From contig JAFCMP010000532.1 in NCBI GenBank assembly GCA_017506865.1, positions 615,720 through 679,719 on the forward strand: 64,000 nt of DNA, given 5' to 3'. Shown here in pieces: positions 14,617 through 64,000 of this stretch. The DNA is from Tribonema minus (taxonomy: Eukaryota > Sar > Xanthophyceae > Tribonematales > Tribonemataceae). Position numbers and translations under genes: made by a program. Under the pieces are notes generated by a model. The model searched no databases. It was not told where the DNA came from and saw only the letters and a list, made by a program, of their open reading frames with translations. The stretch's first letter is position 1; each line of letters starts with the position of its first letter.

Positions 14617-14618
14617 TA

Positions 14619-22285: not shown

Positions 22286-22417
22286 AGCTCAAAGGGGGGC
22301 AACTCACGCAAGCATGGAAAACTTCAAGCATTTGCTTGGAGCAAGTCGGAACAGCTGAGCCACACAGTGCCAGCGGCAAGGTGGCACTGTGATAATTCTA
22401 CTACGCGGCGACCTATA

Positions 22418-23205: not shown

Positions 23206-23590
23206 CAAGTTTTCTTGGTTAAACAAGGCACAAGGCACGCTAGCCCAGAAATCTGGCGGCACAGAGTGCCGACATATGCGGGGGTAGAGCATTGTGCTAC
23301 TGCCTGCCCGCCTGCAAACACAAATGCAGGATGTACACTACTTCTACTTGGTAAGGGGCAAGAGGACTACAGTGACCCCTGTGTCTGCTCCTGTTGCAAC
23401 TGTGGCTGGTGCCATGTACATGTACTGCTGCAGCAGTCCCGCACACCGCGTGACGCATCCCCCGTACCCCCCCCCCCCCGTATCCCCCCCCCCCCGGCCC
23501 CCCGGGTTGCATAACCTCCATACTGCCCCTCATGCCATTGTGGCATCCCCCTCCTCGTCAACCCCCTCCTCGTCACCACCGCCCTCCCCG

Positions 23591-31786: not shown

Positions 31787-34700
31787 ATGTTGAACTGCGG
31801 CGTGCGTGAGGTGATAGGAGGATCGGAGGCGAGGCGAGCGAGGAAAGGGCGGGAACGGAGTTGCGCTGGTTTGGCAATCTCAGTCTGCCTTTTTGCACAG
31901 TGCAAAGTGGTGCATGGAGCGCAAACTGGTGAGTGCTTGTCGGCAAAATCTTATGTAGCGCGAAGTTGTGCTTTGCAGTGATCCAGCCGTACAGCCAGCT
32001 CACCTCTGTTGTGTCTGACTTGGGCTGATGTGGCAGACTTGAGGCTTTCAAGCGTGTCGGTGTCATGAGCGGCGCCTTCTGGTGGGTGGTGGTGGCTTGG
32101 AGCCTGTGCTTTGTTTCGACAGCCAGTCAGCCAGCCACCTGCGGCATTTACTCCAGCACGGAAGCAGGCGAATACTGGTGAGTCATTGGCATTGCAGTTG
32201 ATTGAGGCGATCCTAGGTTCTGTGCTGATGCTTTCTTTCTCTCTGCGTGCAGGTCCGAGGTGGCCAAATGCTCGCCTTGCGTTGCCTTGGCGGGGTGTGG
32301 TTATTGTTTGTCCACGTTGCAGTGTTTAGATGGTACGGTGTCCGGTCCTTCAGATGGGACGCCCTGCCCAAGTTGGAGTTTCGATGAAGCCGCTTGTCCG
32401 GCCGTGCCGGAGTGTGGACAATACGAAAATTGCTCGTCATGTGTCGCTAGCGATGAATGCGCCTGGTGCGCTTCCGAGGCAGCGTGCATGACGATTTCTG
32501 AGATCTTCAGCATTGACTGCCGCGGCACCGTCTTCGACTTGCCATGCCCATCTTCATTTGTTGGCGAGAACCGCGTGGTTGGAAACCTGGTGGTGGAGGC
32601 TGACCCCCTTTTTGGAGGCGGCAGCATACGCGCGAGCGGAACCACTCCAATGGGGCAGCCATTCAGGCTCACGTTGGATTCTCACATGTTTGAAGTACAG
32701 TCATCTTATGACGTGGACCTCCTCTCCGGGAACACCGGTGCTGCAAGCACCGAGGGAGGCCACGTGCGTATTTCAGCTGGCAGTGGAACCAACCCCTTGG
32801 GTGGCAGTGGTGGCTCAGTCACTCTGCTGGGTGGCAGCGGCGCTGGTCTGGAGGCATACGGAGGCGACGTTGGCAATGGGGGCAAAATAACCCTTCTTGG
32901 CGGCACGTCACAACAAGGGGCTGGTGGACATATCTACCTGTATGCTGGGCGAAGCTTGCAGGGGTCTGGTGGATCAGTGTCGCTGGCAAGTGGCACAGGA
33001 TTACGCGCGTCTGGTGATGTTGATGTAAGCAGTGCTGCAGGTCTTGAAACCGCAAGTTCAGGGAATGTCATGGTGAGCAGTGGCACCACATACTCGGGCA
33101 ATTCAGGCACTTTGCTGTTGAGCACAGGTTCATCAGCCTCTGGATCAGCCGGCGAGATGACCCTGTTCATAGGTGGCAGTGGCTCAGGCAACGGGGGAGC
33201 TATCAAGCTTGCTGCAGGACCCTCATCCTCTGCTGACACTAGTGGTGGCGATATTTGGCTCACATCAGGCACAAGCGAATATGGTCAGTCAGGCGCACTC
33301 AGCTTGCAGACAGCGCCTGCCCCAGCAGGTCCGAGTGGCAACATCAGAGTCGCAAGCGGTACATCGGCTAATGGCAACAGTGGCTCCATATCTCTGGTGA
33401 CCAACTCAGCGGCAGGTGGACGCGGTGGCAGCATCTATCTCATGGTGGGTGCGGGCAACAGTGGAAAGGGGGGCCCTATGAAGCTGAGTGCTGGCGATGC
33501 CTCGGGTGCTGGCGCATCGGGGGGGGATGTTGAGCTGTCGGCAGGAGCTGGGCTCGCCGCGTCAACGGACGCTGGCGGACTTGGTGGTCATGTCAGGATA
33601 TATGGTGGTGCTGCTTTTGGCACCTCCAGTACTGATAATGCTGGGCAGGTCCTCATTTCAGGTGGTGATGCAGCAGCAGGTATCGGTGGCTCTGTGCTGG
33701 TCACGTCAGGTGCAAGTCAGCTGTCCTCCAGCGGAAACACTTCACTCGCTACTGCAGACTCAGGCAGTTCAGGTTCAAGCGGTGCTGCAGCCATTACAAC
33801 GGGTGCGGCAACAGGCGGACCATCAGGAAAGATTGGTCTGAGAACAGGTGATGCCAAAGGCGCGGCGAGTGGGAGCATCGAGCTTATGGTGGGCAGCAGC
33901 GACTCTGGAGTTGGCGGCGCTATTCTGATCTCCGCTGGAATGAGCAGTGATGCATCTGGAGGTACCGTAGTGATATCCAGTGGCAAGGGTACCGTTGGCT
34001 CAAGTGGTGATGTTGTAATTGAGACAGCTGACGCTGGAGACAGCGGAGTTTCAGGGGCGATAGTGTTGACAACAGGCCATGCTACCTCAGGCACAGCTGG
34101 CAACATAGAGCTGAAGACTGGCGCCTCCAGCAACGGCAAAGCAGGAGACATCGTTTTCAACATTGGCGGTGCAGAGTCCATAGGCGATGGCGGCGACATT
34201 TCGTTCAAAGCAGGAAACACCAATGCCGTCGACGGTGTTGGTGGCTCCGTCACTCTAATGGGAGGCGATGGCGCCAACGTTGATGGCGGCACCGGAGGCA
34301 ATGTGCAGCTGATTGGAGGCGCTGCAGCTGCTGCAGCTGCAGTCGACGATCTTGGTGATGGGGGCAATGTGATTTTACAGGGCGGTATTGCAGATGATGG
34401 TGTTGGTGGCGCTCTGGTGTTGAAAGGAGGCGCAAGCTCTAGTAGCAGAGGCGGCAGCATTGACTTGGAGAGCGGTGTCAGTGGCATGCAAGATAGTGGC
34501 GACATAACCGTGAAAACCGCCAATGCCTCGAGCTTGGGCGCAAGTGGTCACGTTGTAATTGGCACAGGCACCTCTAGCTTTGGCAGCTCTGGCATGGTGT
34601 CACTGCTCAGTGGCACAGCAGCCAGTGGTGCAGGCGGCGACATCCGCATCGCCATTGGGACAGGCGCACTAGGTGCCGGTGGCAACATGTATCTAGCTGC

Positions 34701-40700: not shown

Positions 40701-43700
40701 AGGCCTGTATGGTGGCAACTCAGATGCCGGTGACGGTGGCATTGCAAGAATTGCTGCTGGAGCCAGTACAAGTAAGGGCAAGGGTGGCAGTGTGCACATC
40801 GCAGGTGGCTCCTCAACTGGCCAAGCTGCCATCGATGCTGGCGGTGAGGTACAGGTCAGAGGAGGTCCAGCTTTAGGAGCAGGAGCTGGCGGGGATCTGC
40901 TGCTTGCATCAGGACGCAGCACAAAGTCATCAAGTGGGGCTCTCCTGCTACGCTCTGATTCTGGTGCTAGCACTGGAGATGTCGCACTGACATCTGGCGA
41001 AGCTGCAAATGGGAACAGCGGAGCGCTGCGCATCATGACTGGGTCTGCAAATGGCGGATCTGCGGGAGACATCCTAGTCAGTGCTGGCGCCACGCAGTCA
41101 GGCAACGGAGGTACACTGTCTTTGTCAGCAGGAGCTGTCACGTCCACAGAGCAAGCGGTAGGTGGGTCTGTTGTCGTTTCCAGCGGTCAAAGTGCTGAAG
41201 GATCAAGTGGCGATGTAAGTGTCTCCACCGCCTCTGCTGGCCGAGCTGGCGCAAGCGGTGTCATATCAATAGCGACAGGCACTGCGTTTTCTGGTGCTTC
41301 AGGGAACATTGCTGTTGCAACAGGGGAGGGCCCACAAGCAGGCAGCATCTCTGCTAACGTTGGCAGATCTCTTGCAGCAACCGGCGGCTCTTTCGATGTT
41401 CATGCAGGCGATAGCATGGTGCTCGATGGTGGGCGGATGCACATCTCAGCAGGTGAATCTGTTGCTGGTGTCGGCGGAGCACTCACCCTTGTTGCAGGAG
41501 GTGCAGGCGCGTCGGGGCTGGCAGGTGGGGATGCTCACCTGATAGCAGGCAGCAGTCGGGGGTTCACCACAAACAGCTCGGGTGGGGCACTTTACCTGCA
41601 AGGAGGAGCCGCTGCATCTGGCTCAGGCGGACCGGTGTCATTGTTGACAGGTTCTAGTGATGAACGTTCCAGTGGTGCCCTTTCCTTGGCTACTGCCGAT
41701 GGATCGCTCTCTGGTGATGTGGTCATGCAGTCAGGACAGGCGCTTCTTGGCTCTTCTGGTGCCTTAAGTCTCGGCACTGGTGACGCCGTGCTGGGCAAGA
41801 GTGGCTCAATCATGGTGACAGCTGGCTCAAGTTCTGAAGCTGGTGCATCAATTTCACTGACTGCAGGTGCAACAGGCGGAGTAGGCAATTTGCAAGGTGG
41901 GCGCATTATGCTCACCACCGGAAGCAGCACCTCTGGTACCAGTGGTGCTATGCTGCTTGCAACAGCTGATGCTTCAACAATCGGTAACAGTGGTGCCACG
42001 TCAATCGCAACTGGCTCCACCACGCAGGGCACAAGTGGTACATTTGATGTCACGACCGGCAATGGTATGGAAGCTGGTGCAATCTCTTTGGCAGTGGGCG
42101 TCTCCTCGTCAGCTGCTGGCGGTGCCATTGCACTGACAGCGGGCGCGAGTGCCGGGGACTATGCATCAGGAGGCAATGTTTTTGTTGCAGCTGGCTTGTC
42201 GGAGCATGGTAATGGCGGAAACATCACTTTCAAAGCAGGTCCTGGCCTGACCAGTGCAGGTGGTTCAGTTGAGATATCAGGAGGCTCTTCTCACTTGCAG
42301 TCTGCCGACATGTCTGCTGGTGGGATACTTATTCAAGGTGGAAACGTGGATTCTGGTGTAGGCGGGCGCGTATCGATCGTCTCTGGGGCGAGCTCGTCAT
42401 TGGACAGCGGAGCTCTTGACCTTTTCAGTTCAGCTGGTGACTCAACGGGCCCAGTGACGCTCGCATCTGGAATGTCAGCACAGTCATCAGGCGCACTGCA
42501 CATTCATACTGGGGATGCATCATCTGGGTCAGCAGGGTTTATCGACATCAGGGCAGGCCAAAGTGCTGCTCAGAACGGCGCACAGCTCTCTCTGGCAGCC
42601 GGCAACAGTTCTGCTGGTGGGGGGCTGGGTGGCTCGGTGACACTCATGAGCGGAAATGGCTCATCGGGCACAAGCGGCGATGTGCTGGTAGCTACACCTA
42701 CTGCGCCGCAGACAGGAGCGGTATCACTCATGACAGGCGCAGCCTCAAGTGGTACATCCGGTGATGTGTTGCTGCATACTGGGGCAGGAAGGGAGGCAGG
42801 TGCAATTTCGGCAAGGATTGGTGATTCCAGCTCAGGCAATGGTGGGAACATAAGCTGGATCGCTGGCACTGCAACCCGTCACGGTGCGTTTGGTGGCAGT
42901 GTAGACATTGTTGCCGGAGAAGCAAGAGATGGCACGGCCGGGTCTGTAAACGTCACTGGAGGATTCAGCAACCAAGCTCAGGGGGGGGATGTCATTGTAC
43001 AGGGGGGGAGTGGTGTCCAGGGAGGAGGTCTTGTTCTTGCTGCTGGTGACGGGTCCAGTCGTGGGGGCGGTGACGTGGTGCTTCAACCAGGTCATGGCCT
43101 GACCGAATCTGGCTCTGTCAATGTGTTGTCAGCTTCTGGTCGTTCAAGGCTCTTTGCTGACGAGGACAATGTCATGGTGACGTCTGGCGATGCAGGCGGC
43201 ATATACTTTGCAGTACCATCTGGTCCTGTCATCACCAACAATGTTATTGGATTTAGCGTGCAAGCGCCCACGGAGTCTGATAATCGTGACCCTCGACAGC
43301 GGGGATATGACCTGCGTATCCAGGAAGTGGCAAAAGATGATCCACGCATCATCACCAATGTCCCGATGCAAGTGAGCAGCATCCAGTACTCCTCCGATCA
43401 GCGGATCAAGAATCGCGTGGAAGATGTTGATGTCGACGACTTGCTGCAGAGATTCCAGCACGTTGAAATGAAGTCGTATCACTACACCGAACAGTGGCGA
43501 AATGTAAACAGGATCAGTGGTGACCCACAAGTGCGTGGTGTCATTGCACAACAACTCGCCACCATCTTCCCTGAACATGTGGATGTCTTGAAAGAGTTTG
43601 AGCTCCCTGATAAAGGATTCAAGCTGGACAACTTCTACCAGGTGGATAAGGACGGTTTGACCATGGACCTTATTGGCGCTGTGCAAGCCATGTTTGATCG

Positions 43701-46700
43701 CTACAGCACCAGCGCCAACAGCCCAATCAAAAGTGGCGACCTTATCATCTCATCAGCTCATGGTGGCAGTTACATGACAGCAGATGTTCAGGAACCATCC
43801 ACTAGCGGCAACATCAGCATCATCACTGGCGATGGCTCGGCAGCAACAGGCACGATTACGGTCAGATCCGGGTCGACATCTGGCGCAGCAGCAGGCAGCA
43901 TCTTGCTGCAGGTTGGCCCTGCGGCCAGCACGGCATCTGGGGCAGAACTGCGGATGCTGGACCGTGATATGATCTTATTGGGCGGGGCTGCTGCTGACAC
44001 GGCGGATGCTGAGACAGGAGCAGGCGGGAATGTGACGCTCATCGGCGGGAGCTCGTCCATTGCGGCCGGCGGTACACTTCTGTTCAGCAGTGGTGTTGGT
44101 GCACAACGTACAGGAGATGTTCACATTGCTTCGGCTGCAGCAGCAGAGGATTCCTCAGCGGAAAGCGGGCATGTCAGTTTGGCAACTGGTTCCACTGGTG
44201 CTGGACATGTGGGAGACCTAGCACTGCTGACCGGTGACTCGCTATCTGGTGCAGCCGGCAATATTCTCGTTCAAGTCGGAGCAGCAGCGTCTGGTATGGG
44301 AGGTAGTGCACATCTATCAGCTGGCCTGGCAACAGCAGCAAACACACAAGGAGGCTCGATGCATATTGCCGCAGGTGATGCAACAGGCTCAGAGAGTGAT
44401 GGTGGGTCTGCGTTGATCACTGCTGGGCGCAGCGCTTCGGCTGTAGGGGGGTCCTTCACTCTTTCGTCAGGTCCAGGTTTGGGTGCATCTGGCGCAGTGC
44501 AGCTGCAGACAGCTGAGAGTGCAAGTACTGGGATGCTTTCCTTGAGCACTGGCACTGCTCAGGCAGGAAACAGTGGTAGCGTTCACATTGCTTCCGGCCA
44601 TGCAGGCGCAGGCAGTAGTGGTGCCCTTCTTGTTGAAACCGGCAACAGCACAGTTGGCGACGGAGGTGCTCTGCGCATTGCCACAGGCCACAGCTTGACT
44701 GGAACTGGTGGGCCATTGCAACTTTTGACAGGAGCAGGAGCATCAGGAACAGGTGGCATCACAATTTCATCAGCATCAGCAACAACAGCTGGTAGTGGCG
44801 GCGTTGCACTGTCCACTGGAGACGCACTTCGTGCTGACTCTGGTTCCATTGCGTTGACAACTGGTCACGCAGGTACTGCACAAAGTGGCAACATAGAAGT
44901 TCATGTTGGTGCATCTGGCAGTGGCCATGGTGGCGCGGTCGTCATCTCAAGTGGCAATTCAAGTGCTGCCTCTCGTGCAGGTGGGCCAATTATTCTGCAA
45001 GCTGGGCAGGGGTCCAGTGCACTTGGTGGCAGTGGTGGCAATGTAACTGTGCAGGCAGGCATGGGGGCCACATCCAATGGCGGCTCCGTTGTCATCAAAA
45101 GTGGCAGCGGAGATGCTACTTCAAGTGGCGCAGTTGTGCTTTCAACTGCATCCGGAGGGACGACGGGTTCTAGTGGAAGCTTGTCGATTATTTCTGGAGA
45201 CTCTGGCCTCGGCGGCACTGGTTCTATCATGTTAGCCACTGGGGAGTCTGCTGGAGGCCCTGCTGGCAACATCAATGCTGTAGTTGGCACTGCAAGCAGT
45301 GGTGCAGGTGGATCAGTATCAGTACGTGCAGGAGACGCAGAGGTGATGACCGGAGGGCAAGTGAGCATATCTTCAGGTTCAAGCAGATTTTCGTCCAGCG
45401 GGCAGCTTGTTTTAAAAACTCCGAATGCTGGACTTGCTGGCACCAGTGGCCCCATCATGTTGAGTACAGGCACCTCTAGTTTGGGTAACAGTGGGCTAAT
45501 ATCTTTGCAAACAGCCTCTGCCCGGTTTGGACGTGGCGGCTCAGTGCATGTCATCGTAGGAAGTGGCACGAGCGGTGCGGGTGGCGACATCCAGCTTGCG
45601 GCCGGATCCACAAGTGCAGTTGACGGTGCTGGCGGCAGTATCAGGATTGCTGGTGGAAGTGGGGTTGGCGCTTCTGGCGGCGCTGGTGGCAATGTAGACA
45701 TCACTGGCGGTACCAGCATGCAAGGCACTGGTGGTGCTCTGCGGCTTCTCAGTGGGCAGGGGATGGCAATGTCCAGCGGCGCAGTGATGCTTGCCTCAGC
45801 AGGTGCTGGCACAGCTGGAGTCAGCGGCTCTGTCACATTGATGTCTGGTACTGCAGCAGCAGGCAGCAGTGGTGCCCTTATGCTCAGCTCCGGGCAGGCA
45901 CACAATGGTCATGGAGGGGCCATCTCCCTCGCAGTAGGCGCTGGTGACAGTGGAGTTGGCGGCGGCATCAGCCTTACAGCGGGAACAAGTGCTGCTGCCA
46001 CTGGTGGCCCAATTACCGTAAGCAGCGGTGTGGGGGCAGCATCGAACAGCGGTTCAGTAAACATGCTCACAGCAGATGCAGGCACTGCAGGCATCAGTGG
46101 CACGCTGAGCCTTTACACTGGCGCATCAAGTCAGGGCAATTCTGGCTCACTTCTCATGCGCACAGGGCCTGCAACAGGAGGCAGTGGAGGTGAGATCCGC
46201 CTTACAGTGGGGTCGTCTACAAGCGGCAAAGGTGGAGATTTGACAGCCATGGCTGGTGCAAGTGACTTTTCTGCTGGTGGTTCTATTGTGCTCAAATCAG
46301 GAGCCAGCTCCATGATGAGCAGCGGTGCCATATACGCACAGACGTCTGATGCTGGAGCCACTGGCGCCAGTGGCGCCCTTTCTTTTGCATCTGGCACCAC
46401 CACTTTTGGTGACAGCGGTGCAATCATCTTGTCTACGGGCACTGCCACTCAAGGGCGGGGCGGGGGCATACAGCTCTCGGTTGGCAGCGGAGATACTGGC
46501 AACGGTGGTGGAGTGGATGTGCGGGCTGGCAGTAGTCAGACTGGCACTGGTGGAGCTATTAACATAACGAGTGGGTCCAGTGTGACCTCTAGCAGCGGAG
46601 ATGCATCAATCTTTACCTCTGATGCAGGCGCAGCTGGATCCAGTGGCCAGTTGAACCTCAAGACTGGAGCATCGATTGCCGGCGACAGCGGATCTATTGT

Positions 46701-49700: not shown

Positions 49701-52700
49701 TGGTGCAGTACGTATCGGCACTGGTGTTTCCACTGCGGGCAGCGGAGGCGAGCTGAGCCTGACTGTAGGGTCCGGCACTGTTGGTGAAGGAGGTGCAGTC
49801 GTGATCGAGGCAGGACTGTCCGCCAGTGGTGGTGCCGTCAGCATAGCAGCAGGCACAGGTACTGCCGGCGACGGTGGCAGTGTCCGCGTGACAGCTGGCG
49901 ATGGCAGCTCCACTGGTGGCGCTTTGTCCTTCGCAAGTGGTGCAGCATCCTCCGGTAACAGCGGAGCAGTCAGACTTGTTTCAGGGTCCAGCAGTGCATC
50001 TGGCGCCAGTGGCAATCTTGTGTTCAGCTCTGGGACATCATCATCGGGTCCAAGTGGCTCTGTCTTGATTGGCAGCGGCACAGCTAGTGAAGGGGCCGGC
50101 GGGCAGTTGAGCCTTGTTGTTGGCTCAGGAACGTCAGGTGCTGGTGGAGGTGTTGTTGTACAAGCAGGCCAGTCCACAGTCGGTGGTGCTGTCACCATTG
50201 CTGCAGGAAGCGGCACGAGCAGTGCTGGAGGTGCAGTAAGGCTGGTGACAGGCTCTGGCATCTCAAGTGGAGCTGTGTCAATCAGCAGTGCTCACGGATC
50301 AGCAACAACAACAGGTTCTGTCAGCTTGGCTTCTGGAGACAGTGGCTCAAGCGGTGTGAGCGGCAATCTTGCTCTGCGGTCCGGTGCTTCTGGTGCAGGT
50401 GACAGTGGTGCTGTTGAGATCACTACAGGAGGTGCCACAGGCGGCAGAGGCGGTGCCTTGAGCCTGACCGTCGGCAGCGGCACCAGCGGTGCAGGTGGGG
50501 CTCTGCAGCTGACTGCAGGATTCAGCAGCGGCGGCGACGGTGGCAACGTCGACCTCAGCAGTGGTTCATCCAACAGTGCGGCAAGTGGCGACGTCAGTGT
50601 TGCATCTGCTGCTGGCACAATGTCTGGCAAGCTGGTGCTGAGCTCTGGCGCATCGAGGTCTGGCAGCACAGGTGGTGTACTTGTCGGCAGTGGCAACGCC
50701 TCAGGCGGAGTCGGGGGCCCCGTAAGTCTAACTGTGGGCAGCGGTGACTCTGGTGCTGGTGGTGATTTGCTGATGGCGTCAGGGGCATCCACAACTGGCG
50801 GCGCGGTCAGTATTGCTGCCGGTGCTGGCACAAGCAGTGATGGTGGTGCCATTAACCTCCTGTCTGGTACTGGCAGCGGGGGGGGCGCAGTGACTGTCAA
50901 GACCGGAAGCGGCGCAGTCAATGATGGCGGCGCACTGTCGCTGTTGACAGGCGACGGCGGTGCAAGCGGAGTCAGCGGCATGTTGACGCTGAGCTCGGGT
51001 GCATCAGGGTCAGGCAACAGCGGCGCAGTGTTGATCGGCAGCGGTTCAGCCACTGGTGGAGGTGGAGGTATGCTCCAGCTGTCTGTGGGCAGTGGCGATG
51101 CTGGTCCAGGAGGCGCATTGGTGCTGATGTCAGGACAAGCAGCCACGGGCGGTGATGTGCGTATGATAGCAGGGACAGGCATCACAGGATCTGGTGGTGC
51201 GGTGAGCATAGCATCAGGCAGCGGCTCCAGCAGTGGTGCACTTCACCTGGCGACTGGCACCGGAGCGAGTGGCCGCAGCGGTGCTGTTAGCATCGTATCT
51301 GGTGCAAGTGGAGCTGCGGGGGCAAGCGGCGAGCTTGTGCTCAGCACTGGCACATCCCAGTCTGGCACTAGCGGCGCTGTGTCAATCGGCAGCGGCGCAG
51401 CCATGGGAGGTTCTGGCGGGAAGCTGAGCCTGGTGGTTGGCCCAGGCAGCTCTGGCACAGGTGGAGATGTGCTGGTGCAGTCAGGGGAATCCATGTCAGG
51501 TGGTGCCATAGCGGTTGTGGCAGGTACAGGTTCAAGCGGCACCGGCGGCGCAGTGCTCCTTGCTGGTGGTGCTGGTAGCACTGATGGCGGCAATGTGCAG
51601 GTGGTCAGTGGCACAGGGCTCTCTGGGGCAAGCGGCGCAGTTTCTGTTGCTTCTGCACCCACAGCTGCTGGCATGAGTGGCACAGTGACACTTGGCTCTG
51701 GCAGCAGCAGTGCTGCCAGCACTGGATCTGTGCTCATTGGCACTGGGTCGTCCGCTTCCGGCAGTGGTGGCAGTCTGCTGCTGTCTGTCGGCAGTGGCAC
51801 AAGCGGCAATGGCGGCTCGGTAGCAGTCAGTGCAGGGTCTAGCACTTCCTCCACTGGAGGTGCAGTCAGCATCATCAGCGGAGCAAGCACGTCGTCTGCT
51901 AGTGGGGAAGTGCGTGTGCTGTCTGCAGATGGCGGAGCCTCGGCTGGTAGCGGTTCCCTCGTCTTCAGCTCAGGCGCATCAGCGACCGGCAACACTGGCT
52001 CTCTGCTGGTAGGTAGCGGGTCATCCACCGATGGAGTTGGAGGAGACCTGAGCCTGACGGTAGGCAGTGGTACCACCGGCACAGGCGGCCAGGTAGTCCT
52101 CAGTGCCGGGCAGTCAGAGACTGGTGGTGCATTGACCATGTCTGCAGGTGCAGGAAGCAGCGCAGGCGGCACTGGTGGTGCTGTATCACTGGTATCAGGG
52201 TCAGGATCTGTGGGTGGAGGGATTGAGGTCACCAGCGGTGCTGGCGCATCTGGCAGCAGTGGCGACATCAGCATCGGCACTGGCACAGGCGGGCCAGCGG
52301 GCATGAGTGGTGCTGTCTCTTTCAGCACTGGCATGTCATCATCTGGCACCAGCGGATCCGTGCTCATCGGCAGCGGCAGTGCTGCAAATGGCGGTGGTGG
52401 CCTCTTGAGCCTCACTGTCGGCACAGGTACATCTGGCACTGGAGGAAGCGTGTTGCTGAGCTCTGGGGCATCCGTATCAGGCGGAGATGTTTCAGTTTTG
52501 GCGGGTTCTGGGTCATTCGCGTCCGGTGGTTCCATGAGCCTTGCAGCAGGCACTGGTGCTATTGGCGGTGCTTTCTCTGTCAGCAGCGGCAGCGGCAACT
52601 CTGGCAACAGCGGGACTGTGTCAGTACAGTCTGGCGATGCTGCTTTGGCAGGAGTCAGCGGAGATGTATCAGTCAGCTCCGGCACAGCTGCTGTCGGCAG

Positions 52701-55700
52701 CACTGGTGCAGTACGCATCAGCACTGGTGTTGCCACTGCGGGCAGTGGAGGTGAGCTGAGCCTGACAGTAGGGTCCGGCACTGTTGGTGAAGGAGGTGCA
52801 GTCATGATCGAGGCAGGACTGTCCGCCAGTGGTGGTGCCGTCAGCATAGCAGCAGGCACAGGTATAGCCGGCGATGGTGGCAGTGTCCGCGTGACAGCTG
52901 GCGATGGCAGCTCCACTGGTGGCGCTTTGTCCTTTGCAAGTGGTGCAGCATTCTCCGGTAACAGCGGAGCAGTCAGCCTTGTTTCAGGGTCCAGCAGTGC
53001 AGCTGGCGCCAGTGGCAACCTTGTGTTCAGCTCTGGGACATCATCATCGGGGCCGAGTGGCTCTGTCTTGATTGGCAGCGGCACAGCTAGTGAAGGGGCC
53101 GGCGGGCAGTTGAGCCTTGTTGTTGGCTCAGGAACGTCAGGTGCTGGTGGAGGTGTTGTTGTACAAGCAGGCCAGTCCACACTCGGTGGTGCTGTCACCA
53201 TTGCTGCAGGAAGCGGCATGAGCGGTGCTGGAGGTGCAGTAAGGCTGGTGACAGGCTCTGGCATCTCAAGTGGAGCTGTGTCAATCAGCAGTGCTCACGG
53301 ATCAGCAACAACAACAGGTTCTGTCAGCTTGGCCTCCGGGGACAGTGGCTCAAGCGGTGTGAGCGGCAACCTTGCTCTGCGGTCCGGTACTTCTGGTGCA
53401 GGCGACAGCGGTGCTGTTGACATCACTACAGGAGGTGCCACAGGCGGCAGGGGCGGTGCCTTGAGCCTGACTGTCGGCAGCGGCACAAGCGGTGCAGGTG
53501 GCGCACTGCAGCTGACTGCAGGATTCAGCAGCGGCGGCGACGGTGGCAACGTCAACCTCAGCAGTGGTTCATCCAACAGTGCGGCAAGCGGCGATGTCAG
53601 TGTTGCATCTGCTGCTGGCACAATGTCTGGCAAGCTGGTGCTGAGCTCTGGCGCATCGAGGTCTGGCAGCACAGGTGGTGTACTTGTCGGCAGTGGCAGC
53701 GCCACAGGAGGAGGCGGGGGCGCTGTTAGTTTGGCTGTGGGCACCGGTGACTCTGGCGCTGGTGGTGCAGTGCGGTTGACAGCAGGCAAATCGTCAAGCG
53801 GTGGTGACATTGGCATCACATCAGGGCCTGGCGTTGAAGGTGCTGGTGGTCTCGTGATGATACAGTCAGGGACTGGTGGTTCTCGTGGAGGTGCAATTGC
53901 TTTGATCACTGGCAGCGGGTCATACAGTGACGGTGGCGCTCTTTCGTTGCTGACAGGGGATGGCGGCATAAATGGTATGAGTGGCATGTTAACTCTGAAC
54001 ACTGGTTTGTCCCAAAGTGGGAACAGCGGAGCAATCACAATCGCCAGTGGGCCCTCAGCACGCAGTAGGGGCGGTGCCTTGAGCCTGGCAGTTGGTAGTG
54101 GCACGAGCGGTGCAGGTGGGGCACTGCAGCTGACTGCAGGATTCAGCAGCGGCGGCGACGGTGGCAATGTCAGCCTCAGCAGTGGTTCATCCAACAGTGC
54201 GGCAAGCGGCGACGTCAGCGTTGCATCTGCTGCTGGCACAATGTCTGGCAAGCTGGTGCTGAGCTCTGGCGCATCGACGTCTGGCAGCACAGGTGCTGTA
54301 CTTGTCAGCAGTGGCAACGCCTCAGGCGGAGTCGGGGGCCCCGTAAGTCTAACTGTGGGCAGCGGTGACTCTGGTGCTGGTGGTGAATTGCTATTGGCAT
54401 CAGGGGCATCCACAACTGGCGGCGCAGTCAGTATTGCTGCCGGTGCTGGTACAAGCAGTGTTGGTGGTGCCATTAACCTCCTGTCTGGTACTGGCAGCGG
54501 GGGGGGCGCAGTGACTGTCAAGACCGGAAGCGGCGCAGTCAACGATGGCGGCGCACTGTTGCTGTTGACAGGCGACGGTGGTGCAAGCGGAGTCAGCGGC
54601 ATGTTGACGCTGAGCTCGGGTGCATCAGGGTCAGGCAACAGCGGCGCAGTGTTGATCGGCAGCGGTTCAGCCACTGGTGGAGGTGGAGGTATGCTCCAGC
54701 TGTCTGTGGGCAGTGGCGATGCTGGTTCAGGAGGCGCATTGGTGCTGATGTCAGGACAAGCAGCCACGGGCGGTGATGTGCGTATGGTAGCAGGGACAGG
54801 CATCACGGGATCTGGTGGTGCGGTGAGCATAGTATCAGGCAACGGCTCCAGCAGTGGTGCACTTCACCTGGCGACTGGCACCGGAGCGAGTGGCCGCAGC
54901 GGTGCTGTTGGCATCGTATCTGGTGCAAGTGGAGCTGCGGGGGCAAGCGGCGAGCTTGTGCTCAGCACTGGCACATCCCAGTCTGGCACTAGCGGCGCTG
55001 TGTCAATCGGCAGCGGCGCAGCCATGGGAGGTTCTGGCGGGAAGCTGAGCCTGGTGGTTGGCCCAGGCAGCTCTGGCACAGGTGGAGATGTGCTGGTGCA
55101 GTCAGGGGAATCCATGTCAGGTGGTGCGATAGCGGTTGTGGCAGGTGCAGGTTCAAGCGGCACAGGCGGCGCAGTGCTCCTTGCTGGTGGTGCTGGTAGC
55201 ACTGATGGCGGCAATGTGCAGGTGGTCAGTGGCACAGGGCTCTCTGGGGCAAGCGGCGCAGTTTCTGTTGCTTCTGCACCCACAGCTGCTGGCATGAGTG
55301 GCACAGTGACACTTGGCTCTGGCAGCAGCAGTGCTGCCAGCACTGGATCTGTGCTCATTGGCACTGGGTCATCCGCTTCCGGCAGTGGTGGCAGTCTGCT
55401 GCTGTCTGTCGGCAGTGGCACAAGCGGCAATGGCGGCTCGGTAGCAGTCAGTGCAGGGTCTAGCACTTCCTCCACTGGAGGTGCAGTCAGCATCATCAGC
55501 GGAGCAAGCACGTCGTCTGCTAGTGGGGAAGTGCGTGTGCTGTCTGCAGATGGCGGAGCCTCGGCTGGTAGCGGCTCGCTCGTCTTCAGCTCAGGCGCAT
55601 CAGCGACCGGCAACACTGGCTCTCTGCTCGTAGGTAGCGGGTCGTCCACGGATGGAGTTGGAGGAGACCTGAGCCTGACGGTAGGCAGTGGTACCACCGG

Positions 55701-58700
55701 CACAGGCGGCCAGGTAGTCCTCAGTGCCGGGCAGTCAGAGACTGGTGGTGCATTGACCATGTCTGCAGGTGCAGGAAGCAGCGCAGGCGGCACTGGTGGT
55801 GCTGTATCACTGGTATCAGGGTCAGGATCTTTGGGTGGAGGGATTGAGGTCACCAGCGGTGCTGGCGCATCTGGCAGCAGTGGCGACATCAGCATCGGCA
55901 CTGGCACAGGCGGGCCAGCGGGCATGAGTGGTGCTGTCTCTTTCAGCACTGGCATGTCATCATCTGGCACCAGCGGATCCGTGCTGATCGGCAGCGGCAG
56001 TGCTGCAAATGGCGGTGGTGGCCTCTTGAGCCTCACTGTCGGCACAGGTACATCTGGCACTGGAGGAAGCGTGTTGCTGAGCTCTGGGGCATCTGCATCA
56101 GGCGGAGATGTTTCAGTTTTGGCGGGTTCAGGGTCATTCGGGTCTGGTGGTTCCATGAGCCTTGCGGCAGGCACTGGTGCTATTGGCGGTGCTTTCTCTG
56201 TCAGCAGCGGCAGCGGCAACTCTGGCAACAGCGGGGCTGTGTCAGTACAGTCTGGCAATGCTGCTTTGGCAGGAGTCAGCGGAGATGTATCAGTCAGCTC
56301 CGGCACAGCTGCTCTCGGCAGCACTGGCGCAGTACGCATCAGCACTGGTGTTGCCACTGCGGGCAGTGGAGGTGAGCTGAGCCTGACAGTAGGGTCCGGC
56401 ACTGTTGGTGAAGGAGGTGCAGTCGTGATCGAGGCAGGACTGTCCGCCAGTGGTGGTGCCGTCAGCATAGCAGCAGGCACAGGTACTGCCGGCGATGGTG
56501 GCAGTGTCCGCGTGACAGCTGGCGATGGCAGCTCCACTGGTGGCGCTTTGTCCTTTGCAAGTGGTGCAGCATCCTCCGGTGACAGCGGAGCAGTCAGCCT
56601 CGTTTCAGGGTCCAGCAGTGCATCTGGCGCCAGTGGCAACCTTGTGTTCAGCTCTGGGACATCATCATCGGGGCCGAGTGGCTCTGTCTTGATTGGCAGC
56701 GGCACAGCTAGTGAAGGGGCCGGCGGGCAGTTGAGCCTTGTTGTTGGCTCAGGAACATCAGGTGCTGGTGGAGGTGTTGTTGCACAAGCAGGCCAGTCCA
56801 CACTCGGTGGTGCTGTCAGCATTGCTGCAGGAAGCGGCACGAGCGGTGCTGGAGGTGCAGTAAGGCTGGTGACAGGCTCTGGCGTCTCAAGTGGAGCTGT
56901 GTCAATCAGCAGTGCTCACGGATCAGCAGCAACAACAGGTTCTGTCAGCTTGGCTTCCGGAGACAGTGGCTCAAGCGGTGTGAGCGGCAATCTAGCTCTG
57001 CGGTCCGGTGCTTCTGGTGCAGGTGACAGCGGTGCTGTTGGGATCACTACAGGAGGTGCCACAGGCGGCAGGGGCGGTGCCTTGAGCCTGACCGTCGGCA
57101 GCGGCACAAGCGGTGCAGGTGGCGCACTGCAGCTGACTGCAGGATTCAGCAGCGGCGGCGACGGTGGCAATGTCAGCCTCAGCAGTGGTTCATCCAACAG
57201 TGCGGCAAGCGGCGACGTCAGTGTTGCATCTGCTGCTGGCACAATGTCTGGCAAGCTGGTGCTGAGCTCTGGCGCATCGAGGTCTGGCAGCACAGGTGGT
57301 GTACTTGTCGGCAGTGGCAACGCCTCAGGCGGAGTCGGGGGCCCCGTAAGTCTAACTGTGGGCAGCGGTGACTCTGGTGCTGGTGGTGAATTGCTATTGG
57401 CATCAGGGGCGTCCACAACTGGCGGCGCAGTCAGTATTGCTGCCGGTGCTGGTACAAGCAGTGTTGGTGGTGCCATCAACCTCCTGTCTGGTGCTGGCAC
57501 CGAGGGGGGCGCAGTGACTGTCAAGACCGGAAGCGGCGCAGTCAACGATGGCGGCGCACTGTCGCTGTTGACAGGCGACGGTGGTGCAAGCGGAGTCAGC
57601 GGCATGTTGACGCTGAGCTCGGGTGCATCAGGGTCAGGCAACAGCGGCGCAGTGTTGATCGGCAGCGGTTCAGCCACTGGTGGAGGTGGAGGTATGCTCC
57701 AGCTGTCTGTGGGCAGTGGCGATGCTGGTTCAGGAGGCGCATTGGTGCTGATGTCAGGACAAGCAGCCACGGGCGGTGATGTGCGTATGGTAGCAGGGAC
57801 AGGCATCACGGGATCTGGTGGTGCGGTGAGCATAGCATCAGGCAGCGGCTCCAGCAGTGGTGCACTTCACCTGGCGACTGGCACCGGAGCGAGTGGCCGC
57901 AGCGGTGCTGTTAGCATCGTATCTGGCGCAAGTGGAGCTGCGGGGGCAAGCGGCGAGCTTGTGCTCAGCACTGGCACATCCCAGTCTGGCACTAGTGGCG
58001 CTGTGTCAATCGGCAGCGGCGCAGCCATGGGAGGTTCTGGCGGGAAGCTGAGCCTGATGGTTGGCCCAGGCAGCTCTGGCACAGGTGGAGATGTGCTGGT
58101 GCAGTCAGGGGAATCCATGTCAGGTGGTGCCATAGCGGTTGTGGCAGGTGCAGGTTCAAGCGGCACAGGCGGCGCAGTGCTCCTTGCTGGTGGTGCTGGT
58201 AGCACTGATGGCGGCAATGTGCAGGTGGTCAGTGGCACAGGGCTCTCTGGGGCAAGCGGCGCAGTTTCTGTTGCTTCTGCACCCACAGCTGCTGGCATGA
58301 GTGGCACAGTGACACTTGGCTCTGGCAGCAGCAGTGCTGCCAGCACTGGATCTGTGCTCATTGGCACTGGGTCGTCCGCTTCCGGCAGTGGTGGCAGTCT
58401 GCTGCTGTCTGTCGGCAGTGGCACAAGCGGCAATGGCGGCTCGGTAGCAGTCAGTGCAGGGTCTAGCACTTCCTCCACTGGAGGTGCAGTCAGCATCATC
58501 AGCGGAGCAAGCACGTCGTCTGCTAGTGGGGAAGTGCGTGTGCTGTCTGCAGATGGCGGAGCCTCGGCTGGTAGCGGCTCGCTCGTCTTCAGCTCAGGCG
58601 CATCAGCGACCGGCAACACTGGCTCTCTGCTGGTAGGTAGCGGGTCGTCCACCGATGGAGTTGGAGGAGACCTGAGCCTGACGGTAGGCAGTGGTACCAC

Positions 58701-61700
58701 CGGCACAGGCGGCCAGGTAGTCCTCAGTGCCGGGCAGTCAGAGACTGGTGGTGCATTGACCATGTCTGCAGGTGCAGGAAGCAGCGCAGGCGGCACTGGT
58801 GGTGCTGTATCACTGGTATCAGGGTCAGGATCTGTGGGTGGAGGGATTGAGGTCACCAGCGGTGCTGGCGCATCTGGCAGCAGTGGCGACATCAGCATCG
58901 GCACTGGCACAGGCGGGCCAGCGGGCATGAGTGGTGCTGTCTCTTTCAGCACTGGCATGTCATCATCTGGCACCAGCGGATCCGTGCTGATCGGCAGCGG
59001 CAGTGCTGCAAATGGCGGTGGTGGCCTCTTGAGCCTCACTGTCGGCACAGGTACATCTGGCACTGGAGGAAGCGTGTTGCTGAGCTCTGGGGCATCTGCA
59101 TCAGGCGGAGATGTTTCAGTTTTGGCGGGTTCAGGGTCATTCGGGTCTGGTGGTTCCATGAGCCTTGCGGCAGGCACTGGTGCTATTGGCGGTGCTTTCT
59201 CTGTCAGCAGCGGCAGCGGCAACTCTGGCAACAGCGGGGCTGTGTCAGTACAGTCTGGCAATGCTGCTTTGGCAGGAGTCAGCGGAGATGTATCAGTCAG
59301 CTCCGGCACAGCTGCTCTCGGCAGCACTGGCGCAGTACGCATCAGCACTGGTGTTGCCACTGCGGGCAGTGGAGGCGAGCTGAGCCTGACAGTAGGGTCC
59401 GGCACTGTTGGTGAAGGCGGTGCAGTCACGATCGAGGCAGGACTGTCGGCCAGTGGTGGTGCCGTCAGCATAGCAGCAGGCACAGGTACTGCCGGCGATG
59501 GTGGCAGTGTCCGCGTGACAGCTGGCGATGGCAGCTCCACTGGTGGTGCTTTGTCCTTCGCAAGCGGTGCAGCATCCTCCGGTAACAGCGGAGCAGTCAG
59601 CCTCGTTTCAGGGTCCAGCAGTGCATCTGGCGCCAGTGGTAGCCTTGTGTTCAGCTCTGGGACATCATCATCGGGGCCGAGTGGCTCTGTCTTGATTGGC
59701 AGCGGCACAGCTAGTGAAGGGGCCGGCGGGCAGTTGAGCCTTGTTGTTGGCTCAGGAACATCAGGTGCTGGTGGAGGTGTTGTTGTACAAGCAGGCCAGT
59801 CAAAACTCGGTGGTGCTGTCAGCATTGCTGCAGGAAGCGGCACGAGCGGTGCTGGAGGTGCAGTAAGGCTGGTGACAGGCTCTGGCATCTCAAGTGGAGC
59901 TGTGTCAATCAGCAGTGCTCACGGATCAGCAACAACAACAGGTTCTGTCAGCTTGGCCTCCGGAGACAGTGGCTCAAGCGGTGTGAGCGGCAATCTTGCT
60001 CTGCGGTCCGGTACTTCTGGTGCAGGTGACAGCGGTGCTGTTGACATCACTACAGGAGGTGCCACAGGCGGCAGGGGCGGTGCCTTGAGCCTGACCGTCG
60101 GCAGTGGCTCCAGCGGTGCAGGTGGGGCACTGCAGCTGACTGCAGGATTCAGCAGCGGCGGCGACGGTGGCAACGTCAACCTCAGCAGTGGTTCATCCAA
60201 CAGTGCGGCAAGCGGCGACATCAGCGTTGCATCTGCTGCTGGCACAATGTCTGGCAAGCTGGTGCTGAGCTCTGGCGCATCGAGGTCTGGCAGCACAGGT
60301 GGTGTACTTGTCGGCAGTGGCAGCGCCTCAGGCGGAGTCGGGGGCCCTGTAAGTCTGACTGTGGGCAGCGGTGACTCTGGTGCTGGTGGTGAATTGCTGT
60401 TGGCATCAGGGGCATCCACAACTGGCGGCACTATCAGTGTTGCTGCCGGTGCCGGCACAAGCAGTGTTGGTGGTGCCATTAACCTCCAGTCTGGTGCTGG
60501 CACCGAGGGGGGCGCAGTGACTGTCAAGACCGGAAGCGGCGCAGTCAACGATGGCGGCGCACTGTCGCTGTTGACAGGCGACGGTGGTGCAAGCGGAGTC
60601 AGCGGCATGTTGACGCTGAGCTCGGGTGCATCAGGGTCAGGCAACAGCGGCGCAGTGTTGATCGGCAGCGGTTCAGCCACTGGTGGAGGTGGAGGTATGC
60701 TCCAGCTGTCTGTGGGCAGTGGCGATGCTGGTCCAGGAGGCGCATTGGTGCTGATGTCAGGACAAGCAGCCACGGGCGGTGATGTGCGTATGGTAGCAGG
60801 GACAGGCATTACGGGATCTGGTGGTGCGGTGAGCATAGCATCAGGCAGCGGCTCCAGCAGTGGTGCACTTCACCTGGCGACTGGCACCGGAGCGAGTGGC
60901 CGCAGCGGTGCTGTTAGCATCGTATCTGGTGCAAGTGGAGCTGCCGGGGCAAGCGGCGAGCTTGTGCTCAGCACTGGCACATCCCAGTCTGGCACTAGCG
61001 GCGCTGTGTCAATCGGCAGCGGCGCAGCCATGGGAGGTTCTGGCGGGAAGCTGAGCCTGGTGGTTGGCCCAGGCAGCTCTGGCACAGGTGGAGACGTGCT
61101 GGTGCAGTCAGGGGAATCCATGTCAGGTGGTGCCATAGCGGTTGTGGCAGGTACAGGATCAAGCGGCACAGGCGGCGCAGTGCTCCTTGCTGGTGGTGCT
61201 GGTAGCACTGGTGGCGGCAATGTGCAGGTGGTCAGTGGCACAGGGCTCTCTGGGGCAAGCGGCGCAGTTTCTGTTGCTTCTGCACCCACAGCTGCTGGCA
61301 TGAGTGGCACAGTGACACTTGGCTCTGGCAGCAGCAGTGCTGCCAGCACTGGATCTGTGCTCATTGGCACTGGGTCATCCGCTTCCGGCAGTGGTGGCAG
61401 TCTGCTGCTGTCTGTCGGCAGTGGCACAAGCGGCAATGGCGGCTCGGTAGCAGTCAGTGCAGGGTCTAGCACTGCCTCCACTGGAGGTGCAGTCAGCATC
61501 ATCAGCGGAGCAAGCACGTCGTCTGCTAGTGGGGAAGTGCGTGTGCTGTCTGCAGATGGCGGAGCCTCCGCCGGTAGCGGTTCCCTCGTCTTCAGCTCAG
61601 GCGCATCAGCGACCGGCAACACTGGCTCTCTGCTGGTAGGTAGCGGGTCGTCCACCGATGGAGTTGGAGGAGACCTGAGCCTGACGGTAGGCAGTGGTAC

Positions 61701-64000
61701 CACCGGCACAGGTGGCCAGGTAGTCCTCAGTGCCGGGCAGTCAGAGACTGGTGGTGCATTGACCATGTCTGCAGGGGCAGGAAGCAGCGCAGGCGGCACT
61801 GGTGGTGCTGTATCACTGGTATCAGGGTCAGGATCTGTGGGTGGAGGGATTGAGGTCACCAGCGGTGCTGGCGCATCTGGCAGCAGTGGCGACATCAGCA
61901 TCGGCACTGGCACAGGCGGGCCAGCGGGCATGAGTGGTGCTGTCTCTTTCAGCACTGGCATGTCATCATCTGGCACCAGCGGATCCGTTCTGATCAGCAG
62001 CGGCAGTGCTGCAAATGGCGGTGGTGGCCTCTTGAGCCTCACTGTCGGCACAGGTACATCTGGCACTGGAGGAAGCGTGTTGCTGAGCTCTGGGGCATCT
62101 GCATCAGGCGGAGATGTTTCAGTTTTGGCGGGTTCAGGGTCATTCGGGTCTGGTGGTTCCATGAGCCTTGCGGCAGGCACTGGTGCTATTGGCGGTGCTT
62201 TCTCTGTCAGCAGCGGCAGCGGCAACTCTGGCAACAGCGGGGCTGTGTCAGTACAGTCTGGCAATGCTGCTTTGGCAGGAGTCAGCGGAGATGTATCAGT
62301 CAGCTCCGGCACAGCTGCTCTCGGCAGAACTGGCGCAGTACGCATCAGCACTGGTGTTGCCACTGCGGGCAGTGGAGGTGAGCTGAGCCTGACAGTAGGG
62401 TCCGGCACTGTTGGTGAAGGAGGTGCAGTCATGATCGAGGCAGGAGTGTCCGCCAGTGGTGGTGCCGTCAGCATAGGAGCAGGCACAGGTACTGCCGGCG
62501 ATGGTGGCAGTGTCCGCGTGACAGCTGGCGATGGCAGCTCCACTGGTGGCTCTTTGTCCTTTGCAAGTGGTGCAGCATCCTCTGGTAACAGCGGAGTAGT
62601 CAGCCTCGTTTCAGGATTCAGCAGTGCATCTGGCTCGAGTGGCGACCTTGTGTTTAGCTCTGGGACATCATCATCGGGTCCAAGTGGCTCTGTCTTGATT
62701 GGCAGCGGCACTGCCACTGAAGGGGCCGGCGGGCAGTTGAGCCTTGTTGTTGGCTCAGGAACATCAGGTGCTGGTGGAAGTGTTGTTGTACAAGCGGGCC
62801 AGTCCACACTCGGTGGTGCTGTCAGCATTGCTGCAGGAAGCGGCACGAGCGGTGCTGGAGGTGCAGTAAGGCTGGTGACAGGCTCTGGCATCTCAAGTGG
62901 AGCTCTATCAATCAGCAGTGCTTACGGTTCAGCAACAACAACAGGTTCTGTCAGCTTGGCCTCCGGAGACAGTGGCTCAAGCGGTGTGAGCGGCAATCTT
63001 GCTCTGCGGTCCGGTACTTCTGGTGCAGGTGACAGCGGTGCTGTTGACATCACTACAGGAGGTGCCACAGGCGGCAGGGGCGGTGCCTTGAGCCTGACCG
63101 TCGGCAGCGGCACAAGCGGTGCAGGTGGCGCACTGCAGCTGACTGCAGGATTCAGCAGCAGCGGCGACGGTGGCAACATCAACCTCAGCAGTGGTTCATC
63201 CAACAGTGCGGCAAGCGGCGATGTCAGTGTTGCATCTGCTGCTGGCACAATGTCTGGCAAGCTGGTGCTGAGCTCTGGCGCATCGAGGTCTGGCAGCACA
63301 GGTGGTGTACTTGTCGGCAGTGGCAGCGCCTCAGGCGGAGTCGGGGGCCCTGTAAGTCTAACTGTGGGCAGCGGTGACTCTGGTGCTGGTGGTGAACTGC
63401 TATTGGCATCAGGGGCATCCACAACTGGCGGCACTATCAGTGTTGCTGCCGGTGCTGGCACAAGCAGTGTTGGTGGTGCCATTAACCTCCAGTCTGGTGC
63501 TGGCACCGAGGGGGGCGCAGTGACTGTCAAGACCGGAAGTGGCGCAGTCAATGATGGCGGCGCACTGTCGCTGTTGACAGGCGACGGTGGTGCAAGCGGA
63601 GTCAGCGGCATGTTGACGCTGAGCTCGGGCGGCATCAGGGTCAGGCAACAGCGGCGCAGTGTTGATCGGCAGCGGTTCAGCCACTGGTGGAGGTGGAGGT
63701 ATGCTCCAGCTGTCTGTGGGCAGTGGCGATGCTGGTCAGGAGGCGCATTGGTGCTGATGTCAGGACAAGCAGCCACGGGCGGTGATGTGCGTATGGTAGC
63801 AGGGACAGGCATCACGGAATCTGGTGGTACGGTGAGCATAGCATCAGGCAGCGGCTCCAGCAGTGGTGCACTTCACCTGGCGACTGGCACCGGAGCGACG
63901 GCCGCAGCGGTGCTGTTAGCATCGTATCTGGTGCAAGTGGAGCTGCGGGGGCCAGCGGCGAGCTTGTGCTCAGCACTGGCACATCCCAGTCTGGCACTAG
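31787..64000 (+). CDS. Giant secreted-type beta-solenoid repeat protein with PSI and Peptidase S74 domains (3' incomplete)
   Basis: Proposed exons: 31,787-31,928, 32,123-32,177 and 32,253 to beyond the window, joined in phase at GTGAGT donors and CAG acceptors. The last exon is open for 31.7 kb without a stop, giving about 10,650 residues so far. Order: Arg-rich N-terminus and a hydrophobic stretch AGLAISVCLFA (possible signal peptide); Cys-rich PSI-like modules (about residues 60-155); Gly/Ser/Ala/Thr repeats with an SGG-V-hydrophobic-SG pattern (about 180-3,680); a Peptidase S74 domain (about 3,720-3,890); then the same repeats to the edge, the last 16 kb as near-identical 1,001-residue units. 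S74 domains of phage tailspikes and MYRF trimerise and cleave themselves, so an extracellular trimeric fibre is a reasonable inference, not shown. The start exon is the weakest part: its n-region is long and an earlier exon may exist. Three single-base indels near 63.63-63.90 kb disturb the frame locally. Confidence 0.75.
31929..32122 (+). other. Intron 1 of the giant gene (proposed)
   Basis: Donor CAAACTG|GTGAGTGC and acceptor TTTGTTTCGACAG|CCAGTC; 194 bases. It splits an Ala codon (G|CC). Joining restores the frame into the Cys/Trp-containing exon 2. Confidence 0.6.
32178..32252 (+). other. Intron 2 of the giant gene (proposed)
   Basis: Donor AATACTG|GTGAGTCATT and acceptor CTTTCTCTCTGCGTGCAG|GTCCGAG; 75 bases. 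It splits a Trp codon (TG|G), giving GEYW-SEVAKCSPC across the junction. Confidence 0.65.
32253..32520 (+). other. PSI-like cysteine-rich module pair
   Basis: Two Cys-rich blocks follow each other. The first is KCSPC ... GCGYCLSTLQCLDG with a later PCPSW. The second is CGQYENCSSCVASDECAWC followed by C at short spacing. The C-x2-C, CxWC/CGYC and C-x-G..C-x2-W spacing is that of PSI (plexin-semaphorin-integrin) modules, which occur in extracellular proteins. This supports export of the protein. The spacing has not been checked against a profile. Confidence 0.6.
43201..43740 (+). other. Peptidase S74 / intramolecular chaperone auto-processing domain
   Basis: The frame leaves the repeat and becomes a globular domain. 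It includes SSDQRIKNRVEDVDVDDLL (the S-D-x-R-x-K signature), then KSYHYTEQW, the hallmark GVIAQQLATIFPEHV, and MDLIGAVQAM near the end. The presumed nucleophile Ser is codon 43,393-43,395 and the Lys five residues on is codon 43,408-43,410, matching the Ser-Lys dyad described for MYRF and phage endosialidase chaperone domains. The fragment RGYDLRIQEVAKDDPRIITN just before it resembles the region leading into S74 domains. Such domains normally sit at the C-terminus. Here the repeat resumes with no stop, so more than 6,700 residues follow. Confidence 0.85.
47687..48229 (+). repeat. Partial leading unit of the 3,003-bp array
   Basis: Matches the last 543 bases of the first full unit (50,690-51,232) at a constant 3,003-base offset. 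Upstream of about 47,687 similarity falls to that of the general repeat, marking the left boundary of near-identity. Confidence 0.7.
48230..51232 (+). repeat. 3,003-bp tandem unit 1
   Basis: Unit boundaries are set at the recurring GTGGTGCACTTCACCTGGCG. The unit is 3,003 bases, exactly 1,001 codons, so copy gain or loss keeps the giant frame open. Within it runs a degenerate repeat of roughly 14-18 residues ending in a hydrophobic strand and S/A-G. Confidence 0.9.
51233..54853 (+). repeat. Enlarged tandem unit 2 (3,621 bp, internal 618-bp duplication)
   Basis: Same unit plus 618 bases (206 codons). The block containing GCACTGCAGCTGACTGCAGG and the following GGATTCAGCAGCGGCGGCGA occurs at about 53,500 and again 618 bases later. 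The insertion includes a stretch around 53,800-54,060 not present in the other units. The frame is preserved. Confidence 0.85.
54854..57856 (+). repeat. 3,003-bp tandem unit 3
   Basis: Near-identical to unit 1 with scattered substitutions, same length and phase. Confidence 0.9.
57857..60859 (+). repeat. 3,003-bp tandem unit 4
   Basis: Near-identical to units 1 and 3. It shares some variant bases specifically with unit 3 (for example TCAGGGTCATTCGGGTCTGG near 56,127 and 59,130), suggesting that these two are each other's closest copies over that part. Confidence 0.9.
60860..63862 (+). repeat. 3,003-bp tandem unit 5, with compensating indels near its end
   Basis: Same length overall, but with +1 near 63,630 and -1 near 63,737 relative to other units, so about 107 bases are read in a different frame. 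A few substitutions also cluster here. Confidence 0.85.
63863..64000 (+). repeat. Start of tandem unit 6, cut by the window edge
   Basis: Matches the start of the other units. One base is missing near 63,898 (GCGAGTGGCCGC becomes GCGACGGCCGC), shifting the frame to the edge without creating a stop. Confidence 0.8.

Follow-up and report, generated by a model that had tools for sequence, protein, structure and literature searches.

A giant open reading frame of repeats with an internal Peptidase_S74 domain: a candidate self-cleaving fibre protein in an alga

The plus strand of the window (the whole 64,000-nucleotide stretch of DNA analysed here) carries an open reading frame of more than 10,500 codons that is real, although the frame and the end first given for it need correcting. 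The frame continues beyond the window onto a second contig, and the variation among its repeat units provides good support, at the level of sequence, for a coding function. Our preferred reading, which we consider probable, is that it makes up most of a three-exon gene for a secreted, self-cleaving, trimeric fibre protein of ~26,450 residues, the frame being kept by selection together with in-frame recombination.

The genome to which the window belongs was searched as an assembly of 158.2 Mb in 554 contigs. It gave 92 matches to the chlorophyll-binding family, identifying the organism as an alga, and the look of these proteins suggests what we take to be a red-plastid lineage. Upstream in the window, between 2727 and 10477, lies a run of long plus-strand ORFs of 290 to 765 codons; no Pfam family was found in the five that were scanned (four at E ≤1, one at E ≤0.01). 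The features of the giant gene that fall within the window are as follows.

32065..32177, plus strand: predicted exon 1, with an ATG at 32065 and a putative signal peptide (MSGAFWWVVVAWSLCFVSTASQ...); the exon's last codon, TGG, is split
32178..32252, plus strand: predicted intron 1, 75 bp, GT-AG (GTGAGT...TGCAG)
32253..64000, plus strand: window part of the giant exon (exon 2), with open codons from 32254 and three single-base indels in the last 370 bases
32413..32502, plus strand: PSI (plexin) module, best stretch (PF01437, E 8.4e-8)
32755..43155, plus strand: diverged 15-residue Gly/Ser rungs (GGxVxLxxGxSxxGx), N-terminal part
43393..43581, plus strand: Peptidase_S74 / ICA domain (PF13884, E 4.6e-10, 40.1 bits, above the cut-off of 22)
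43804..48240, plus strand: diverged rungs following the ICA domain
48241..63999, plus strand: recent tandem array of 3003-bp (1,001-codon) units, starting at 48241, 51244, 54865, 57868 and 60871

The open frame and its coding nature

A plus-strand frame without any stop extends from 32206 to 63999 (10,598 codons), and the corresponding entry in the ORF listing covers 32260..63999 (10,580 aa, with an open 3' end). The initial annotation had described a single exon of at least 31.7 kb in which every triplet from 32253 to the window edge was open. Taken literally from that base, 283 of the 10,582 codons are stops; the open codons begin one base later, at 32254, and base 32253, the first of exon 2, completes the TGG codon begun in exon 1 (donor at 32178). 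The frame does run to 63999 without a stop, but the last 370 bases carry the three indels. A single exon with a clean stretch of at least 31.4 kb is supported, and the length given for the exon was if anything an understatement, since it continues onto contig C511.

Between 32254 and 63627 the giant frame has no stop in 10,458 codons, compared with 418 and 281 stops in the other two plus-strand frames; the three minus-strand frames have 414, 76 and 480. In the part that precedes the recent array (32254-48240) the count is 0/5,329, against 196 and 177 in the other plus-strand frames. As a control for chance, 100 first-order Markov sequences were modelled on this same part with the same dinucleotide steps; these had a mean of 145 stops per frame (minimum 123) and no open run longer than 423 codons. 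Long ORFs (up to 673 aa) are also present on the minus strand between 37542 and 63839. We rejected these as genes, as they recur with the 3003-bp unit and even the most open minus-strand frame has its 76 stops, and they are taken as shadows of the coding frame.

Evidence of constraint on the protein comes from 11 clean 3003-bp units, a set that leaves aside the variant unit at 51244, the last unit in the window, the noisy C511 units, the unit with an extra base (see below) and units of variant length. Among these 11, 99 variants are synonymous and 77 non-synonymous, none of them creating a stop; the observed mutation spectrum predicts 61.2 and 114.8, respectively (N/S ratio 0.415, one-sided p 4.8e-9). 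When the two wrong frames are used instead, the ratios for these same variants are 1.77 and 2.75, with 10 and 7 stops. The absence of stop variants, with 2.3 expected, is weak on its own. The 439 pairs of old, diverged copies have a median pS of 0.72 and a median pN of 0.39, values of supporting use only, as picking copies by protein similarity lowers pN. The stop counts and the N/S ratio together rule out a chance origin of the open frame.

The same two results bear on whether the locus might be a tandem satellite, or a product of assembly, in which an open unit has merely been copied. About half of the window part is indeed an array of units 88-98% alike, the contig ends are noisy and overlapping, and there are array contigs that could not be placed. 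Against this, the stop-free first 16 kb lies outside the recent array, the copies are under protein constraint, and on either side of the array lie conserved domains and splice sites whose frames match. A pure satellite is ruled out by the stop counts and N/S ratio, and we regard this explanation as a whole as highly improbable.

As to size, the comparison with titin and mucin exons drawn in the initial annotation agrees with known lengths: the titin and MUC16 exons, at ~17 kb and ~22 kb, are shorter than the giant exon. A literature search on giant exons and proteins found no comparable exon among the papers listed, a result that does not prove that none exists; as the PKZILLA genes encode giant algal polyketide synthases, we do not call the giant exon the longest known.

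Repeat units, the contig end and the rest of the gene

The repeat has two scales. The shorter is the rung: of 647 steps between successive motif hits, 333 are exactly 15 residues, a short and regular repeat of the kind expected of a beta-solenoid. The longer is the 1,001-codon unit of the array, in which the copy at 51244 is a variant, 88% alike. Of the 16 unit spacings, 15 measure 3003, 3501 or 3621 bp, each a multiple of three, whilst the sixteenth is 3004 and holds the extra base. Two units of C511, at reverse positions 21960 and 34968 (13,008 bp apart), differ at only 2 sites, which indicates that exchange between them was recent, unless the assembler duplicated the stretch. The initial annotation had put the upkeep of the frame down to selection or to in-frame exchange of repeats; the N/S ratio of the clean units bears out the first, and these spacings and near-identical units the second.

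When the first 1,000 aa of rungs were used to search the organism's own genome, 204 matches were obtained, those listed lying in C529 (the contig that holds the window), C511, C456 and C491. Searches of the phage, viral contig and genome contig collections found no homologue of the rung region: the rungs together with the S74 domain (862 aa) had no tblastn match among the 50,697 records of the phage collection, and the rungs alone had no relative in a scan of the viral contig collection. A dispersed 788-bp copy of part of exon 2 (47146-47933) lies on the plus strand at 22418..23205, ~10 kb upstream of the gene and outside the gene model, in a separate open frame (22259-23284). The copy is 95.4% identical to the exon without gaps; of the differences, 24 are synonymous and 12 non-synonymous, and none introduces a stop.

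Contig C529 (679,719 bp) comes to its end at the right edge of the window. Set against the 3003-bp unit before it, the last copy of the array shows three single-base indels (63630, 63737 and 63899); these throw parts of the final 370 bases out of the repeat's frame, and it is by luck that no stop arises there. Contig C511 (1,967,978 bp) likewise ends within the array and carries the gene onward on its minus strand. Over the first 4,077 bases of its reverse strand, the alignment to 59897-63999 of the window shows 32 mismatches and 92 gap openings; the three others longer than 4 kb show 144, 144 and 154 mismatches. Between the C511 unit in the overlap and the last window unit there are 22 differing sites, and between it and each of the 11 clean units 76 to 117; a C491 unit is close to it as well (19 differing sites). 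From these comparisons we infer that the overlap of ~4.1 kb is true, joining the two contigs, and that the C511 end is unpolished.

On C511 (in reverse numbering) the frame is open from 4652 to 21460 and again from 21228 to 50978, being broken in the assembly by an extra single base at 21293. The N/S ratio is 0.374 in units upstream of this base and 0.494 in those downstream, and the unique 3' part of exon 2 has 0/1,382 stops, compared with 55 and 42 in the other frames; the extra base is therefore likely to be either an error of assembly or very recent in origin. The remainder of the gene on C511 is predicted as follows.

C511 reverse 50947: donor of exon 2 (GTCAGT)
From C511 reverse 50947 onward: predicted intron 2, 192 bp
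C511 reverse 51139-51767: predicted last exon (exon 3), in which the rung pattern is resumed in frame, ending in TGA

In PHROGs and Pfam, exon 3 had weak matches only (the best to DUF2345, E 0.0096, 16.2 bits, below the cut-off of 30.7); it had no tblastn match among the 50,697 records of the phage collection and no relative in a scan of the viral contig collection. Past the giant gene on C511, ~2 kb downstream and on the same strand, lies a Peptidase C13 gene (L025:3404-4312, minus strand; PF01650, E 1.9e-36), by its look presumably that for the GPI transamidase subunit GPI8.

Taking the ~4.1 kb overlap into account, the whole length of exon 2 comes by arithmetic to an estimated 78,616 bp and the predicted chain to ~26,450 residues, which at the mean mass per residue in the window part corresponds to ~2.3 MDa. 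We give the exon length as an estimate because further array is present on two small, unplaced contigs, C456 (13,793 bp) and C491 (11,713 bp), of each of which 10,000 bases were read. These may represent other haplotypes or missing units, and the length of the array may vary between alleles. One stretch of C456 is 99.4% identical to part of C511; one C491 unit differs from the last window unit at 7 sites, but the C491 unit that follows differs at 54 from the next C511 unit, which is itself noisy in part.

The Peptidase_S74 domain and the predicted product

The N-terminal end of the predicted protein has the appearance of a secreted one. Exon 1 encodes a putative signal peptide, called by eye from the sequence, and is followed in exon 2 by the PSI module, for which Pfam reported two stretches within 32254-32850; in a genome-wide search for PSI this module was the sole match. 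The predicted in-frame splices to the upstream ATG exon and to the last exon, where the rungs resume, favour the three-exon reading. The frame in the window is rich in glycine (25.4%), serine (19.2%) and alanine (13.2%).

Interposed in the rungs is the domain matched by the Pfam model for the S74 family. Its predicted catalytic pair, within the motif at 43390-43410, comprises a serine (43393-43395) and a lysine (43408-43410) five residues apart, and the cut site is predicted to lie just before 43393. In MYRF, S587 and K592 (corresponding to S911 and K916 of the phage endosialidase) are needed for self-cleavage, according to PMC8326128, and the spacing in the giant protein is that of S587 and K592. 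The PDB entries found by sequence at E ≤1 were the MYRF ICA (7dc3, 5.5e-9) and FolD (0.28), with no third. Three PHROG tail-fibre families also match (E 1.7e-11, 1.6e-9 and 2.9e-4); of these, phrog_1980 spans both rungs and S74 (E 1.6e-9, over residues 80-569 of the 733 searched) in a weak match. NCBIfam had no family for the three proteins searched.

The giant protein shares its S-D-x-R-x-K motif with three other S74 loci of algae and with seven viral sequences picked from 41 viral loci; in the alignment with these seven, the S, D, R and K columns are invariant. The 41 were found in the viral contig scan with alignment A3, in which another algal S74 sequence stands first; the same scan found no relative with alignment A2 or with the giant protein's own S74 region, which likewise had none in the genome contig scan. 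Besides that of the giant gene, the genome has three S74 loci: L003 (on C190), L004 (C71) and L006 (C79). Those on C190 and C71 have a different repeat (GGLTVTTGGAAVTGAL...) followed by S74, and that on C79 has an apparent intron inside S74.

AlphaFold2 gave poor models of both regions. In the case of the rungs (mean pLDDT 63.8, no secondary structure reported), a Foldseek search of the PDB with the model found nothing significant (best E 5); a solenoid fold is suggested by the 15-residue period and the Gly/Val/Leu pattern. The S74-region model (mean pLDDT 46.6) matched the three MYRF ICA 7dc3 chains best (E 4e-5 to 8.1e-5), then endosialidase chaperone chains at E 0.065 and weaker and then unrelated proteins. 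Among its 6 matches at E ≤0.001 in the viral Foldseek library are the tail fibre of a Synechococcus phage and an S74 protein of Pyramimonas orientalis virus. Foldseek scores residues too, so that these results are not independent of the sequence match.

The tail-fibre matches raise the question of origin. An integrated virus or polinton-like fibre gene, enlarged and without function for the alga, would fit with them, and S74 domains are described as widespread in polinton-like viruses of eukaryotes (PMC12220804) and as present in prasinoviruses (PMC12906663). The two predicted spliceosomal introns, the signal-peptide-like exon, the PSI module and the purifying selection seen in recent copies all argue against such an origin, as do the position of MYRF as nearest S74 relative in the PDB and the finding that a rung profile had no match at E 1e-3 among ORFs of at least 80 aa at the 41 viral S74 loci. 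We think a viral gene improbable here.

Another alternative concerns what the ICA domain does. In a real giant secreted coat or matrix protein it could act as a folding or trimer clamp, or persist as a relic, with the chain left uncut. Its internal position, with more than 20,000 residues after it, fits with this, the S74 of the best-known fibres being C-terminal, as in the virus fibres of PMC12220804 and in the viral loci examined. The Ser-Lys pair and its spacing are nevertheless intact in the giant protein, and an internal ICA can cut, as MYRF demonstrates (PMC8326128), leaving an uncut chain rather unlikely in our judgement.

The reading that we prefer, the secreted and self-cleaving fibre, would work as follows. 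A short signal-peptide exon, a giant exon of ~79 kb and a short last exon would together encode a secreted chain of PSI modules and then many hundreds of rungs, with the ICA domain interposed near residue 3,750. The rungs would stack into a beta-solenoid-like stalk and three chains would join at the ICA domain, which would then cleave the chain that carries it, in the manner of phage tail spikes and MYRF. Cleavage would yield a trimeric N-terminal fibre with ~3,750 residues in each chain and a C-terminal part of very large size, and the product would be a fibre of the cell surface, wall or scale. Purifying selection, together with recombination between units whose length is a multiple of three, would keep the frame open.

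In its fullest form the proposal is of a ~2.3 MDa self-cleaving, trimerising surface fibre, encoded almost entirely by a ~79 kb exon that is kept open, lengthened and shortened by in-frame exchange of 1,001-codon blocks, and of a structural use of ICA in a eukaryote outside MYRF. We advance this tentatively, with rather less than even confidence. Were it true, the phage-type ICA self-cleaving chaperone would extend from virus fibres and MYRF-type regulators to a giant algal structural protein. If transcribed and translated whole, the exon and its product would be among the largest eukaryotic coding exons and proteins and would put to the test how cells produce and translate an mRNA of ~80 kb. 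The locus would also provide a measurable case of a frame held open by selection together with in-frame recombination.

Comparison with known systems

The membrane transcription factors MYRF and MrfA resemble the giant protein in having an internal ICA domain, in the spacing of its Ser-Lys pair and in being the best PDB match by sequence and fold. In contrast to these factors, the ICA of the giant gene sits in a predicted secreted repeat protein. A MYRF protein has a DNA-binding domain and a membrane anchor on the two sides of its ICA domain; no DNA-binding family was found in Pfam scans of parts of the giant chain (on a rough estimate, ~11,800 of the ~26,450 residues lie outside the scans), and we do not file the giant protein as a MYRF.

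The likeness to phage tail spikes and fibres, and to the fibres of polinton-like viruses and prasinoviruses, lies in an S74 domain beside repetitive, beta-rich stalks. In prasinoviruses, solenoids and S74 are found in one gene region, as reported in PMC12906663. In polinton-like viruses from most eukaryotic groups, S74 is ubiquitous and often C-terminal, in modular proteins of up to 3.9 k residues (PMC12220804), compared with ~26,450 here. Unlike in these fibres, the S74 of the giant protein is internal and its gene has predicted eukaryotic introns and a PSI module; nor was its stalk repeat found in virus fibres as represented by the 41 viral S74 loci, where the rung profile had no match at E 1e-3.

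Titin, the mucins and the algal polyketide synthases share with the giant protein their size class and their growth by repeated blocks, but differ in their domains. The PKZILLA proteins are larger than the giant repeat protein. Algal polyketide synthases of 1.2 MDa have also been described (PMC4661987). Finally, a survey of proteins of more than 5,000 residues indicates that signal peptides are rare at 26k to 35k residues (PMC11573180), and by this measure the giant protein, with its putative signal peptide, is an unusual member of its size class.
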